From assembly GCA_021156365.1 (NCBI GenBank), contig JAJNDK010000009.1, positions 124,001-188,000 on the forward strand: a stretch of 64,000 nt of DNA, read 5' to 3'. Below are positions 35,639 through 40,603 of the stretch, piece after piece (positions within the stretch are counted from its first letter, which is position 1; the number at the start of each line of letters is the position of its first letter). A program made the position numbers and the translations under genes. The DNA is from Bacteroidota bacterium. Lineage in GTDB: Bacteria; Bacteroidota; Bacteroidia; B-17B0; Aurantibacillaceae. The notes beneath the pieces were generated by a model that was given only the letters and a program-made list of their open reading frames with translations, did not search any database and was not told where the DNA came from.

Positions 35639-35671
35639 TTTGGGAGATATTATTTTGTGTCCCTATATTTG
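35639..35671 (+). promoter_or_regulatory. Promoter of the met/hom cluster (TTTG-N21-TATATTTG)
   Basis: TTTG at 35639-35642 is followed after 21 bases by TATATTTG at 35664-35671, matching the Bacteroidota housekeeping promoter. Transcription should start near 35677-35680, 25-30 bases before the SAM riboswitch. Confidence 0.7.
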
Positions 35672-35704
35672 CAGCGAATTAATTACCCACCCGTGCGTAA
35701 TTAG

Positions 35705-35828
35705 TTTATCAAGAAGTGGCGAGAGAATAGGCTCGATGACCCGCTGGCAACCAACTTTAAGTCCTGATGTTACAGTCAGGATTGGAAAACCGGTGCTAAG
35801 TCCTACCCTGATGAAAAACAGGGATAGA
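35705..35828 (+). promoter_or_regulatory. SAM-I (S-box) riboswitch
   Basis: The conserved S-box sequence is readable: TTTATCAAGAAGTGGCGAGA, then GATGACCCGCTGGCAACC, then GGTGCTAAGTCCTAC. P1 closes with TTTATC (35705-35710) and GATAGA (35823-35828). P3 is the TCCTGA/TCAGGA hairpin near 35762-35784 and P4 the CCCTG/CAGGG hairpin near 35807-35823. It binds S-adenosylmethionine and normally lowers expression of methionine synthesis genes. There is no obvious terminator directly after P1; the terminator sits about 200 bases later, after a short cysteine-rich ORF. Confidence 0.9.
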
Positions 35829-35847
35829 TGAATTAAATTACAAAATA

Positions 35848-35979
35848 ATGAAAACAAAAAGCACATTCGGCCTCCCTGGCCTGATTTTGGGAAAAGTCCT
35901 TCAAACAATCTTCACTCCGGTTGGTTATTTACTTAGCGTCATGCGTTGGTGTTGCGGCACCTGCTGCCCTCTTTGCTAA
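35848..35979 (+). CDS. Cysteine-rich leader peptide ORF of the met/hom cluster
   Basis: A 43-codon ORF begins 20 bases after the riboswitch (ATG 35848) and ends TAA 35979. The peptide has a hydrophobic middle (GLPGLILGKVLQTIFTPVGY) and ends MRWCCGTCCPLC, with five cysteines in the last nine residues. A shorter version could start at ATG 35941. The position, between riboswitch and terminator, and the clustered Cys codons next to the stop are the marks of a transcription-attenuation leader that senses charged tRNA-Cys. I do not recognise a published family; it could instead be a functional small membrane protein. Confidence 0.6.
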   Translation: MKTKSTFGLPGLILGKVLQTIFTPVGYLLSVMRWCCGTCCPLC

Positions 35980-35997
35980 GCGAAAAATCTTTATAGA

Positions 35998-36015
35998 TCC
36001 CGATAGCTATCGGGA
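35998..36015. repeat. Perfect palindrome TCCCGATAGCTATCGGGA
   Basis: An 18-bp perfect palindrome between the leader ORF stop and the terminator hairpin. The core CCCGATAGCTATCGGG recurs at 40610-40629 and 54663-54678, each time outside genes. Confidence 0.75.
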
Positions 36016-36025
36016 CAATAAGATC

Positions 36026-36063
36026 GCAGTTCTTAGCATACTAAGAGCCTAACTGCTTTTTTT
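36026..36063 (+). terminator. Terminator / attenuator hairpin of the met leader
   Basis: GCAGTT (36026-36031) pairs with AACTGC (36051-36056). Inside it CTTAG (36032-36036) pairs with CTAAG (36041-36045) around CATA, and seven Ts follow (36057-36063). The inner arm CTTAGC at 36032-36037 can alternatively pair with GCTAAG at 35975-35980, which overlaps the last Cys codon and stop of the leader ORF. In turn GCTAAG can pair with CTTAGC at 35932-35937, upstream of the Cys codons. This allows terminator and antiterminator states. Confidence 0.65.
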
Positions 36064-36113: not shown

Positions 36114-36359
36114 ATGTCATCAAAAAATAATGCGCAGACCGCCTGGTCAGGTAGCAACCTGCTGACCAACACAGATTTTCTTTCGTTCATCCATATCCAG
36201 GTTCAATACGGAGTTGCTCAGAGAGGCGGCATCGTTCTGTACACAAGCAATCTATCGCACCTGTCGAGAGTGGCAAGCGATGTGAACCTTCTTGAACCGA
36301 AAGAAATAAAAACGATCATCGCGAGGCTTCGCGACGAAAACTTTATCAGCAAAAACTAA
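36114..36359 (+). CDS. Small protein of unknown function, first full gene after the met attenuator
   Basis: An 81-residue polar protein with a predicted alpha/beta character (LSFIHIQVQYGVAQRGGIVL, then a helix EPKEIKTIIARLRDENFI). It lies six bases before metX on the same strand, so it is co-transcribed and possibly co-translated with it. No signal or membrane helix. I do not recognise a family. Its position suggests a role in sulfur or methionine metabolism or its control, but this is inference only. Confidence 0.6.
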   Translation: MSSKNNAQTAWSGSNLLTNTDFLSFIHIQVQYGVAQRGGIVLYTSNLSHLSRVASDVNLLEPKEIKTIIARLRDENFISKN

Positions 36360-36365
36360 TTCATT

Positions 36366-37427
36366 ATGAGCTTACAACACTATAAACACGAAAAAGCATT
36401 TCACCTTGAAGGCGGCGGCATCCTTCCTTCTTTTGAGATCGCTTATCACACCTACGGTACCTTGAATACAGAACGCTCCAATGTGATCTGGGTATGCCAT
36501 GCACTCACTGCCAACAGCGATGTGCTGGACTGGTGGAAGGGACTGTTCGGAGAAAATAACCTGTTCGATCCGAAAGACTATTTTATCGTATGCGCCAACA
36601 ATCTCGGCTCCTGCTATGGAACCACCGGACCTTTATCTGTGAATGAAGATATCGGTCAGCCCTGGTATGCCTACTTTCCGGAAGTAACGATCCGTGATAT
36701 GGTAAATGCGCATGAAGTACTACGTGTGCATCTTGGCATTGAAAAAATAAACACGATCATTGGCGGATCACAAGGTGGGCAACAGGTACTGGAATGGAAT
36801 ATCCTGCAACCGGAACTGTTCGAAAATACGATCGTGGTAGCTACCAATGCAAAACATTCTGCCTGGGGGATCGCATTTAATGAAGCACAGCGCCTGGCGA
36901 TCAAAGCTGACAGGACTTATTACGCCAACCTGCCCGACGGTGGAAGCAAAGGTCTGCAGGCTGCACGTGCTATTGCTTTGCTGAGTTACCGAGGATATGA
37001 AACATTCACCGGCACGCAAACAGAAAAGGACAATGAGAAGACCGGTGATTACAAAGCCAGCTCTTACCAGCGTCATCAGGGGCAGAAACTGGTAAAACGT
37101 TTCAATGCATATTCGTATGTAATCCTGTCGCAGGCAATGGATAGCCATAATGTCGGGCGCAACCGCGGATCGCTTGAAAAAGCGCTGGAACAGATCACTG
37201 CCAGAACATTGGTGATCGGCATTAAAAATGACCTGCTCTTCCCGGTGAGCGAACAGTGGCTCTTAACCGAGCAGATCCTTAATGCAGAATTCGCTGCTAT
37301 CGATTCCTTTTATGGACACGACGGATTCCTGATAGAAACGGAAAAGCTGACGAATATTATTGCCTCGTTCCTTGTAGCAGACATACGTACAAATGCAGAA
37401 ATACTCGAAATAAAAAACATGAAATAA
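36366..37427 (+). CDS. metX: Homoserine O-acetyltransferase (MetX family)
   Basis: A 353-residue alpha/beta-hydrolase-fold acyltransferase that activates homoserine for methionine synthesis. The nucleophile elbow GGSQGG (about 134-139), YGTLNTERSNVIWVCHALT, NNLGSCYGTTGP, RIN-region equivalent QRHQGQKLVKRFNAYSYVIL, and the Asp/His near DLLFPVSEQW and YGHDGFLIE are in place. Family members may use acetyl- or succinyl-CoA, which sequence alone does not settle. It is under the SAM riboswitch leader and precedes the homoserine dehydrogenase gene by 12 bases. Confidence 0.94.
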   Translation: MSLQHYKHEKAFHLEGGGILPSFEIAYHTYGTLNTERSNVIWVCHALTANSDVLDWWKGLFGENNLFDPKDYFIVCANNLGSCYGTTGPLSVNEDIGQPWYAYFPEVTIRDMVNAHEVLRVHLGIEKINTIIGGSQGGQQVLEWNILQPELFENTIVVATNAKHSAWGIAFNEAQRLAIKADRTYYANLPDGGSKGLQAARAIALLSYRGYETFTGTQTEKDNEKTGDYKASSYQRHQGQKLVKRFNAYSYVILSQAMDSHNVGRNRGSLEKALEQITARTLVIGIKNDLLFPVSEQWLLTEQILNAEFAAIDSFYGHDGFLIETEKLTNIIASFLVADIRTNAEILEIKNMK

Positions 37428-37439
37428 ATACTTATTCAA

Positions 37440-38699
37440 ATGGCAAAGAAAATAAAAATAGGACTTTTCGGATTTGGCTGTGTGGGACAAGGCCTTCATT
37501 ATGTACTCAACAACAGTACCGGATTCAAAGCAGATATTGTAAAGATCGCGGTGAAAGACCGTTCCAAAAAACGTACAGTGGCGGCAGAGCTGATCACCTT
37601 TGATAAATGGGAGATCCTTGACAACCCGGAGATCGACATTATCGTAGAGCTGATAGATGACGCAGAAGAAGCCTTCAATATCGTCAGCGAAGCATTAAAA
37701 AGAGGCAAACATGTAGTGACGGCAAATAAAAAAATGCTGGCCCTGCATTTAGCAGAACTATATAAGCTGCAGCAGGAAAACAATGTATCATTATTGTATG
37801 AAGCATCTGCCTGCGGAAGCATCCCGATCATCCGTACGCTGGAAGAATATTTCGACAATGAAGAGCTGGAAAAAGTATCGGGGGTCTTCAACGGAACGAG
37901 CAATTATATCCTTACCAAAACCATCACCGAAAAACTGACCTATTCCGATGCATTGAAACAGGCCCAGGAAAAGGGATTTGCAGAAAGCGATCCGACAAAC
38001 GATGTGGAAGGTTTTGATCCGAAATTCAAATCGATCATCATCGCCCTGCATGCCTTCGGACTGATCATCCGGCCGGAAGAGATCCTGAACCTTGGGATCA
38101 CTACCCTGCATGCCAATGACATCAATTATGCATCTGAAAAAGGATATAAGATCAAGCTTACACCCGTGATCCAGCGGGTGGCAGAGAATAAGATCAGCAT
38201 CTTTGTTGCTCCACGCTTCATAAAAACCAATAACCACCTCTACAACGTAGACAATGAATTTAACGGGGTGATCGTGGAAGGAAAATTTTCCGGCGAACAA
38301 TTCCTGCAGGGGAAAGGTGCGGGAAGCTATCCTACAGGCGCAGCAGTGCTCTCTGATATTTCCGCACTTTCCTATGGATATAAATATGAATATAAAAAGT
38401 ATGCACAAAACCGCCCACCCGAATTCACCAATGACGTATTACTGCAGGTGTATTTCCGGTATAATTCGCAGGAGGATCTGCAGCGTTTCGGATTTGATGA
38501 GATCAACGAGAAATATACAGGCAGGGATTACAATTATATCGTCGGGAAACTGAGCCTGCAACAGCTCATCAAAGAGCGGCAGTATATCCTGGATAATAAT
38601 TTATTCATTTCCCTTGTGAATGAAACCGTATGCTTAGACGACGAGCAGATCAAAAAAAATGTGATCCACAAATCAGAACCCGAATTAGTAAATCAATAA
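37440..38699 (+). CDS. hom: Homoserine dehydrogenase
   Basis: A 419-residue enzyme that reduces aspartate semialdehyde to homoserine, the substrate of the preceding MetX. The NAD(P) fold starts at IKIGLFGFGCVGQGLHYVLN; catalytic-domain blocks include VVTANKKMLALHLAELYKLQ, YEASACGSIPIIRTLEEYF, SGVFNGTSNYILTKT and AESDPTNDVEGFDPKFKSII, and GAGSYPTGAAVLSDI binds the substrate end. No ACT domain motif is obvious, so feedback control by threonine is unclear. It is inside the metX operon. Confidence 0.95.
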   Translation: MAKKIKIGLFGFGCVGQGLHYVLNNSTGFKADIVKIAVKDRSKKRTVAAELITFDKWEILDNPEIDIIVELIDDAEEAFNIVSEALKRGKHVVTANKKMLALHLAELYKLQQENNVSLLYEASACGSIPIIRTLEEYFDNEELEKVSGVFNGTSNYILTKTITEKLTYSDALKQAQEKGFAESDPTNDVEGFDPKFKSIIIALHAFGLIIRPEEILNLGITTLHANDINYASEKGYKIKLTPVIQRVAENKISIFVAPRFIKTNNHLYNVDNEFNGVIVEGKFSGEQFLQGKGAGSYPTGAAVLSDISALSYGYKYEYKKYAQNRPPEFTNDVLLQVYFRYNSQEDLQRFGFDEINEKYTGRDYNYIVGKLSLQQLIKERQYILDNNLFISLVNETVCLDDEQIKKNVIHKSEPELVNQ

Positions 38700-38723: not shown

Positions 38724-39359
38724 ATGTCAATCAGATTAGGAGACACCGCACCCGACTTCACTGCAGAATCCAGCGAAGGAACCATTCACTGTCACCAATG
38801 GCTGGGGGATAAATGGGGGATACTTTTCAGCCATCCTGCAGATTTTACACCGGTATGTACAACCGAATTAGGTACAGTAGCCAAACTGAAGCCTGAATTC
38901 GAAAAACGAAATGTAAAAGTGATCGCACTTAGTGTGGATCCCGTTCAGTCGCATCTCGAATGGATCAAAGACATCAACGAAACACAAAATACGACAGTGA
39001 ACTATCCTATCATCGCTGATCCTGCTTTTGAAGTTTCGAAGCTCTATGGATTTGTTCATCCGAATGCTTCCGACAAGTTTACCGTACGTTCGGTAGTGAT
39101 CATCAGTCCGGATAAAAAAGTAAAATTGCTTATCACCTATCCTGCATCCACCGGAAGGAATTTTGATGAGATCCTGCGGGTGATCGATTCCCTTCAGCTT
39201 ACGGACAATTACAGTGTAGCAACTCCTGCCAACTGGAAACAGGGGGAAGATGTGGTAGTGATCCCGGCTATTAAAACTGAAGACATCCCTGCAAAATTCC
39301 CGAAAGGGTTCAAAGAGATCAAATCCTATTTACGGATCACTCCGCAACCAAATATCTAA
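38724..39359 (+). CDS. Peroxiredoxin, 1-Cys (Prx6) type
   Basis: A 211-residue thiol peroxidase. The peroxidatic Cys lies in HPADFTPVCTTELGTVAKLK, and IALSVDPVQSHLEWIKDI and FTVRSVVIISPDKKVKLLIT are family blocks. The lack of a C-terminal resolving Cys and the long C-terminal arm (to KGFKEIKSYLRITPQPNI) mark the Prx6 branch. It sits between hom and metZ, 24 bases after hom, so peroxide defence is placed with sulfur amino-acid synthesis. A hairpin with a T-rich tail follows. Confidence 0.93.
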   Translation: MSIRLGDTAPDFTAESSEGTIHCHQWLGDKWGILFSHPADFTPVCTTELGTVAKLKPEFEKRNVKVIALSVDPVQSHLEWIKDINETQNTTVNYPIIADPAFEVSKLYGFVHPNASDKFTVRSVVIISPDKKVKLLITYPASTGRNFDEILRVIDSLQLTDNYSVATPANWKQGEDVVVIPAIKTEDIPAKFPKGFKEIKSYLRITPQPNI

Positions 39360-39390
39360 TTCCTGTTTTTGTTTTAAATAAGGTGAAGAT

Positions 39391-39420
39391 CCCGGGACGA
39401 AAGAACCGGGCTTTTCTTTT
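39391..39420 (+). terminator. Terminator-like hairpin between peroxiredoxin and metZ
   Basis: CCCGG (39391-39395) pairs with CCGGG (39406-39410) across a ten-base loop, followed by CTTTTCTTTT. It lies only 17 bases before the metZ ATG and could reduce read-through into metZ. Confidence 0.5.
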
Positions 39421-39436
39421 CCAACACCAGACCACT

Positions 39437-40603
39437 ATGAAAGATAAACAATTCGAAACCCAGGCCATCCGCACGCAGTTACCACGAAGTGAGAACAATG
39501 AACACTCGGTACCGCTTTATCTTACCTCCAGCTTTGTATTCGATACAGCGGAAGATATGCGTGCAGCTTTTGCAGAGGAAACTGATCCTTACATCTATTC
39601 GCGGTATACCAATCCCAACAACAATGAATTTGTAGACAAAATGTGCCTGCTCGAAGGAGCGGAAGCCGGTGTAGCTACTGCCTCCGGGATGGCCGCTATT
39701 TATACCAGTCTGGCTGCCCTCTTGCAGTCCGGTGACCACGTGATAGCCTGTTCTTCGGTCTTTGGCGCCACGCATACGATCTTCAATAAATATTTTCCGA
39801 AATGGAACATCAGCCATTCGTACTTTGAAGCCACGAATCCCGGAGCGATCGAACAATTGGTACAAAGCAACACGAAGATCATTTTTGTGGAAACTCCAAC
39901 CAATCCGGGTATCGAAATAATAGACCTGGAACTGCTGGGGCAGATCGCAAAGAAGCATAAGCTGATCCTTGTTGTCGATAATTGCTTTGCGACTCCATAC
40001 CTGCAGCAGCCTTTGAAATACGGTGCCAGCCTGGTGGTGCATTCCGCGACCAAATATATTGACGGGCAGGGAAGAGTTTGCGGTGGCGTAGTGGTAGGTA
40101 AAAAAGAACTGATCCGGGAGATCTATCTGTTTGGAAGGATCACTGGTCCAAGCCTCTCACCCTTCAATGCCTGGACACTGAGCAAAAGCCTGGAAACACT
40201 TGCCCTTCGAATGGATCGTCATTCGGAGAATGCACTCTACATTGCGGAGGCACTCGAAAAAAATGCGGCACTGGAATTTGTCAAATATCCTTTCCTGCCT
40301 TCACACCCACAATATGCGATCTCTAAAAAACAAATGAAAGCAGGAGGAGGCATCATTACTTTTTCTGTGAAAGGCGGTTATGAAGCTGCTACAAAATTCA
40401 TGGACCGGCTGGAGCTCATAAAGATCTCTCCCAACTTAGGTGATGCACGTACCATTGCCACACATCCTGCCTCTTCCACTCATTGCAAGCTGAGCAAAGA
40501 AGAGCGGCTTGCAGTAGGTATCCTGCCCGGACTGATCCGTATTTCTATTGGCCTGGAGAACAAAGACGATATTTTGAAAGATATTATACAGGCACTTGGG
40601 TGA
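39437..40603 (+). CDS. metZ: O-succinyl/acetylhomoserine sulfhydrylase (MetZ-type, Cys/Met PLP family)
   Basis: From ATG 39437 (MKDKQFETQAIRTQLPRSEN) the enzyme has 388 residues, the usual family size; the longer frame from 39383 is not conserved in type. It makes homocysteine from acyl-homoserine and sulfide. PLP-family blocks are YSRYTNPNNNEFVDKMCLLE, ATASGMAAIYTSLAALLQSG, VDNCFATPYLQQPLKYGASL, VVHSATKYIDGQGRVCGG (PLP Lys) and THPASSTHCKLSKEER. Cystathionine gamma-synthase is a close relative. It completes a homoserine-to-homocysteine route with metX. Confidence 0.92.
   Translation: MKDKQFETQAIRTQLPRSENNEHSVPLYLTSSFVFDTAEDMRAAFAEETDPYIYSRYTNPNNNEFVDKMCLLEGAEAGVATASGMAAIYTSLAALLQSGDHVIACSSVFGATHTIFNKYFPKWNISHSYFEATNPGAIEQLVQSNTKIIFVETPTNPGIEIIDLELLGQIAKKHKLILVVDNCFATPYLQQPLKYGASLVVHSATKYIDGQGRVCGGVVVGKKELIREIYLFGRITGPSLSPFNAWTLSKSLETLALRMDRHSENALYIAEALEKNAALEFVKYPFLPSHPQYAISKKQMKAGGGIITFSVKGGYEAATKFMDRLELIKISPNLGDARTIATHPASSTHCKLSKEERLAVGILPGLIRISIGLENKDDILKDIIQALG

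Follow-up and report, generated by a model that had tools for sequence, protein, structure and literature searches.

A Bacteroidota metX operon leader combining a SAM-I riboswitch that lacks its own terminator with a predicted Cys/Met leader peptide

Attenuators of the trp/his type in enteric bacteria are built around a leader ORF, with RNA regions that can pair as 1:2, 2:3 or 3:4. Poly-cysteine leader ORFs of mycobacteria and Actinobacteria are reportedly the subject of work by Canestrari in 2020. Riboswitches and leader-peptide attenuators are usually viewed as mutually replacing alternatives; in the leader described here, they are stacked within one conserved arrangement. According to the consulted portions of two papers (PMC1262725, PMC9094748), Cys leader ORFs precede sulfur genes in Actinobacteria, including mycobacteria, and the consulted part of a third (PMC8632094) places the uORFC-8-2 motif ahead of cysS in Rhodobacterales. 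For amino-acid operons of Flavobacterium psychrophilum, clues pointing to attenuation by leader peptides are stated in the corresponding part of PMC9723704. A SAM-I riboswitch followed by a Cys/Met leader peptide is not described in the consulted portions of PMC2965389, PMC3766115, PMC7366714 or PMC13236596. More broadly, no description of this succession was found in the consulted parts of the open-access literature, subscription papers lying mostly outside that scope, and within this literature the preliminary description of the locus, which knew of no account of the combination, stands.

We analyzed a 64,000-nucleotide stretch of a Bacteroidota genome (contig JAJNDK010000009.1, positions 124,001 to 188,000), hereafter the window. 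Its metX operon leader runs in the order promoter, SAM-I aptamer, 43-codon ORF, hairpin with seven U, and then the first gene (Table 1). We propose, with a probability of roughly three in four, that this leader is a composite controller in which a SAM-I aptamer lacking its own terminator is joined to a Cys/Met leader peptide acting through ribosome-mediated attenuation.

Table 1. Features of the metX operon leader and downstream genes, in window coordinates
Feature	Position	Strand	Basis or remark
Promoter TTTG-N21-TATATTTG, presumed Bacteroidota-type	35639..35671	+	Sequence
SAM-I (S-box) riboswitch aptamer; P1 end ...AGATGAATT, without a terminator directly after	35703..35834	+	RF00162, 65.1 bits; fold with P1 formed; terminator scan
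Putative leader peptide ORF of 43 aa with tail VMRWCCGTCCPLC; its AUG at +14 from last aptamer base	35848..35979	+	ORF read; similar ORF in 48/51 metX/OAHS leaders
Candidate attenuator region 1, CUUAGC, inside ORF just upstream of Cys codons	35932..35937	+	Pairing analysis
Candidate attenuator region 2, GCUAAG, over last Cys codon and stop codon	35975..35980	+	Pairing analysis
Predicted intrinsic terminator: bulged hairpin of -10.3 kcal/mol followed by seven U	36026..36063	+	Folding; bulge-tolerant scan
Candidate attenuator region 3, CUUAGC, terminator 5' arm, same hexamer as region 1	36032..36037	+	Pairing analysis
Candidate attenuator region 4, CUAAGAG, terminator 3' arm	36041..36047	+	Pairing analysis
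orf81, encoding a small protein; first full gene downstream of the leader	36114..36359	+	Homologue here in 35/46 family leaders, by motif and length
metX-like homoserine O-acetyltransferase	36366..37427	+	Exceeds the NF001209 cut-off; falls short of that of TIGR01392
Homoserine dehydrogenase (hom)	37440..38699	+	NF004976, PF00742
Peroxiredoxin	38724..39359	+	NF009668, PF00578
PLP-dependent O-acyl-homoserine sulfhydrylase-type enzyme (metZ-like)	39383..40603	+	PF01053; best NCBIfam NF006003 under cut-off, 500.8 of 522 bits

By the covariance model, the window element belongs to the SAM-I riboswitches, and SAM binding is predicted: it scores 65.1 bits against a gathering cut-off of 44.4 and covers the complete model (1-108). 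It is the sole SAM-I match in its genome. The preliminary description had recognized the riboswitch correctly but had given it a span of 35705-35828, which the model moves to 35703-35834. An RF00162 search of 87 genomes of the same family returned matches at E <= 0.001 in 77 of them, at 130 places, all of which were read and eight of which score under the gathering cut-off. Places with the aptamer 3' end AATT were assigned to a C class, and the first 91 family places comprised 49 of the C and 42 of the T class. A bulge-tolerant terminator scan, identical for both classes, was applied at 88 nt and 118 nt after P1. Within 88 nt, a terminator was found in 0/46 Cys-type leaders compared with 41/42 of the T class, bearing out the earlier remark that the S-box terminator expected after P1 is missing; within 118 nt, a stretch that reaches into the ORF, the counts were 3/46 and 41/42. 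T-class leaders precede metH in 39 of 42 cases.

A promoter had been placed at 35639-35671 beforehand, and both of its elements are present, TTTG at 35639-35642 and TATATTTG at 35664-35671; we take this TTTG-N21-TATATTTG arrangement to be of the Bacteroidota type. A generic sigma-70 scan gave 2 sites, compared with 2.0 in shuffles. As a raw pattern count, TTTG/TTG-N-TANNTTTG occurs upstream in 44/49 C-class loci, mostly 31-38 nt ahead of the riboswitch, and in 17 of the 41 T-class loci having enough sequence. Most of the 44 C-class promoters have TTTGG as their -33 element, at near constant spacing, and a regulator site could be hidden in this extension beyond the TTTG consensus.

The 43-codon Cys-rich ORF at 35848-35979 is exactly as first described and begins after a gap of 13 nt from the aptamer. 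Counting as Cys-rich any ORF that starts within 20 nt of the aptamer and has at least three Cys among its last 14 residues, we found one before metX or O-acetylhomoserine sulfhydrylase (OAHS) at 48/51 family places, in 48 genomes, before metH at 0/72 (some with an intervening methyltransferase gene), and at 0/7 of the remaining places. The comparison of related leaders that the preliminary description had proposed thus finds riboswitch and ORF together by gene class. The three metX/OAHS places lacking the ORF are L016, which has an N gap, L042, where a degenerate ORF retains two Cys, and one terminator-class place scored as OAHS. L058, among the remaining seven, is C-class by its 3' end and has neither ORF nor gene. 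Dinucleotide shuffling of 46 family leaders produced a Cys-rich ORF at +0..20 in 19/9200 sequences, and this rarity, together with the distribution by gene class, rules out a chance frame. A profile search of the window's own genome with the leader gave a single other match, insignificant (E 0.185) and with internal stops.

Peptide statistics were compiled for 46 of the 48 family leaders with an ORF. Cys makes up 301/644 (47%) of the last 14 residues compared with 7/1158 (0.6%) elsewhere, and Met 139/644 (22%) compared with 4/1158 (0.3%); Met is present in all 41 distinct tails, the window's own tail having one. Both TGT and TGC occur at most Cys positions. A run of codons for the regulated amino acid thus lies near the ORF stop, as is looked for in an attenuator. 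Met enrichment is not known from actinobacterial poly-Cys leader ORFs. The codon run, first read as Cys alone, is indeed Cys-rich, but has to be widened to Cys plus Met. The peptide has the shape that a sulfur amino acid leader should show, and the leader looks tuned to both amino acids. That the ORF instead encodes a small functional Cys-rich peptide, binding metal or thiols, would fit a high Cys content at a fixed end, but is very improbable given that the N-terminal parts differ among 11 aligned peptides, that the tail is enriched in Met too, and that the ORF is tied to the riboswitch and to gene class.

The AUG is positioned +12 to +16 from the aptamer in 41 of the 46 leaders. This nearly fixed spacing speaks against two independent layers, in which the riboswitch would control something else (RNA stability or an action in trans) and the leader peptide would attenuate alone; such a separation, to which the lack of an expression platform adjoining P1 lends some weight, as does the P1 3' strand, composed of A and U alone, for which no other pairing partner was noticed by eye, we consider unlikely. 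The co-occurrence of riboswitch and ORF is best read as joint sensing of SAM and aminoacyl-tRNA, in agreement with what had been suggested before except that Met has to be added to Cys.

The arrangement is much wider than the window, five further families of the class also having it. A class-level sample of 119 genomes contained 88 with SAM-I, four of these being family genomes, and the 110 SAM-I places outside the family in this sample were read. The ORF is present at 7/11 OAHS places and at 2/8 places before other genes, these nine positives representing five families (f2, f14, f35, f36 and f44); it is absent before metZ-like genes (0/13), metX (0/3), metH (0/73), a NifS-like gene (0/1) and cysH (0/1). 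Of the four OAHS places outside the family that lack the ORF, L252 and L268 keep a start codon in the normal position without a Cys run, the tail of L244 is shorter and contains two Cys (ACCITRMR), and L289 has no such ORF. A contig scan by a pattern requiring three Cys codons gave at least 118 loci. Among the matches listed, eleven have SAM-I-like sequence before the Cys-rich ORF: L107, L109, L116, L133, L140, L172 and L190 are contigs of family genomes already counted, and the other four are L096, L135, L160 and L162. These four, which lie outside the family, have SAM-I above the cut-off together with the ORF; they are a Cyclobacteriaceae MAG, a Pedobacter sp. MAG, Pontibacter sp. 172403-2 and Pseudochryseolinea flava; the leaders of the two MAGs precede OAHS, as judged by eye from translations.

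Other gene contexts were seen as well. In Pontibacter sp. 172403-2 (L162), SAM-I and a poly-Cys leader stand before what by eye is an apparent sulfite reductase and siroheme operon, and the Pseudochryseolinea flava leader precedes a dioxygenase-like gene (by eye from the translation). Two places in one genome (L318 and L304, G136) have SAM-I and a Cys-rich ORF ahead of genes for a SusC/TonB-type receptor and a protein resembling ATP-grasp enzymes, again by eye from translations. At L315 (G179), an ordinary SAM-I terminator comes first and a poly-Cys ORF follows 113 nt downstream, before cysH, so that the elements are stacked separately.

Regions 1 and 3 of the window leader are both complementary to region 2, which gives a trp-like 1:2, 2:3, 3:4 layout. 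The hairpin with seven Ts that had been noted at 36026-36063 was recovered as a bulged stem of -10.3 kcal/mol followed by U7; two simple hairpin scans miss it because of the bulge, and a bulge-tolerant scan finds it. In equilibrium folding, the terminator probability is 0.98-1.0 when a ribosome sits at the stop codon and 0.96-0.98 when none is present; a stalled ribosome brings it to about 0.75, with pairing 2:3 reaching 0.15-0.24. Since the terminator is still favored under stalling at equilibrium, co-transcriptional kinetics have to be invoked for the attenuation model. According to a second calculation, pairing of the window's stop region with downstream RNA drops from 0.68 to 0.47 on stalling. 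A perfect palindrome, CCCGATAGCTATCGGG, lies at 35999-36014 between the leader ORF and the terminator; the leader of the sister genome and the L109 riboswitch contain it too, and it is perhaps a repeated element of the window's group.

Across the family, a test of 2:3 plus 3:4 pairing gave a mean z of 1.69, with 20/46 loci at or under 3/60 shuffles, the relatives not being independent. The window alone was not significant (16/60 shuffles as good). Nor was the test significant outside the family, where the 14 loci had a mean z of about 0.28 and 3/14 were at or under 5%; adding L109, a family locus, gave 15 loci with a mean z of 0.46 and four at or under 5%. Stop-region pairing alone was modest, at 8/46 compared with 2/46 in the control. 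In an alignment of 23 leaders, selected because they were alignable, 89% of region 2:3 cells pair, and paired cells and the covariation score were better than in 500/500 shuffles. The count of pairs changed on both sides and the count of pair types were not above shuffles in these 23 leaders, helix 2:3 having one pair changed on both sides. Folding stability relative to shuffles had a mean z of -1.85 for the Cys-codon region and -1.57 for the post-stop region (n=46), compared with -0.01 for a coding control (n=49).

A U-tract terminator follows the ORF in 5/46 family leaders, compared with 1.8 expected from shuffles, and none was found in the leader of the sister genome, the single sister genome with a leader. 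A terminator conserved in the family is thereby ruled out: on the question of joint conservation raised in the preliminary description, the terminator is not generally kept together with riboswitch and ORF. With a U-tract in just these five leaders, most relatives must have another output step, which may be Rho-dependent termination. Possibly, although at well under even odds, the leader as a whole works in this manner: its output would be Rho-dependent termination or control of mRNA decay, SAM or finished translation would expose post-stop RNA to Rho, stalled ribosomes would protect it, and the U-tract in the window would have been added locally. The 41/46 leaders in which no U-tract terminator was found agree with this, as does a protein with a Rho RNA-binding domain encoded in the window's genome; mycobacterial Cys leaders are likewise without terminators, and Rho is suggested for them in the consulted part of PMC1262725. 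Against it stand the good terminator in the window itself and the post-stop pairings that exceed shuffles in the family.

For the composite controller that we favor, the following course is hypothesized. Behind the SAM-I aptamer, which lacks its own terminator, a leader peptide would be translated from an ORF at nearly constant spacing. Under a shortage of charged tRNA-Cys (or tRNA-Met), the ribosome would stall on the Cys/Met codons of the tail and leave region 2, at the stop codon, free to pair with region 3, which would block hairpin 3:4. A ribosome that completes the peptide would cover region 2, and 3:4 would form, in the window as an intrinsic terminator. Translation of the ORF, stalling of the ribosome and the turning on of the operon by stalling are all predicted. 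SAM would act upstream, most simply since P1 sits in the initiation footprint of the leader AUG; an action of SAM on leader initiation through P1 is the least supported step of the mechanism that we infer. In most Cys-type leaders P1 consists of A-U pairs, and a P1 so made would be in need of SAM. We offer only tentatively, at somewhat less than an even chance, the fuller version in which SAM-bound P1 blocks the leader AUG, so that the operon is on just at low SAM together with Cys/Met starvation, as a serial two-input gate recurring across Bacteroidota before sulfur genes. Stalling raises stop-region pairing by more than 0.3 in just 11/46 leaders; in many relatives this pairing persists when the leader is not translated, which weakens the idea of SAM gating.

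The first gene after the leader, orf81, sits between the leader and metX/OAHS. Its residues G38, G39, R52, N58 and E64 are invariant in 28 aligned copies. The window copy had no Pfam or NCBIfam match up to E 1, and structure prediction gave a poor model (mean pLDDT 63.9, pTM 0.31).

The arrangement suggests that the cell reads SAM and sulfur amino acid supply within one messenger leader. Should translation of the ORF be gated by the riboswitch, an aptamer for a metabolite would act in series with a ribosome, and the leader would show how Bacteroidota, in which Shine-Dalgarno initiation is mostly lacking, couple a riboswitch to translation. It also provides a ready hypothesis for sulfur control before metX, OAHS and the apparent sulfite reductase operon of one Pontibacter.

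Compared with the SAM-I (S-box) riboswitch RF00162, whose ordinary form is kept by the T-class leaders of the same family, the window leader shares a complete model match and the context of methionine synthesis genes, but has no terminator beside P1 and has a Cys/Met leader ORF next to it. It shares the 1:2, 2:3, 3:4 layout with trp/his-type attenuators and differs from them by the preceding riboswitch and by relatives that are mostly without a U-tract. The remaining comparisons rest on the consulted portions of the papers cited. The poly-Cys ORFs of mycobacteria and other Actinobacteria have in common with it a short ORF, a Cys run near the stop, sulfur genes and no conserved terminators, but no riboswitch is named in those portions (PMC1262725, PMC9094748). 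The uORFC-8-2 motif likewise has Cys codons in the uORF (two) and a U-run like that of an intrinsic terminator, but belongs to another gene and another phylum, with no SAM aptamer described there (PMC8632094). The metA SAM-II riboswitch of Sinorhizobium meliloti also places a SAM riboswitch near an upstream AUG, with a terminator further down; it is of another riboswitch class, its AUG1/AUG2 are in frame with metA, and no sulfur-codon leader peptide is described in the portion consulted (PMC9373788). The ubiG operon of Clostridium acetobutylicum likewise has one operon under both SAM and tRNA-Cys, but there a Cys T-box takes the place of the leader peptide, and the target of the S-box is an antisense RNA (PMC2940859).
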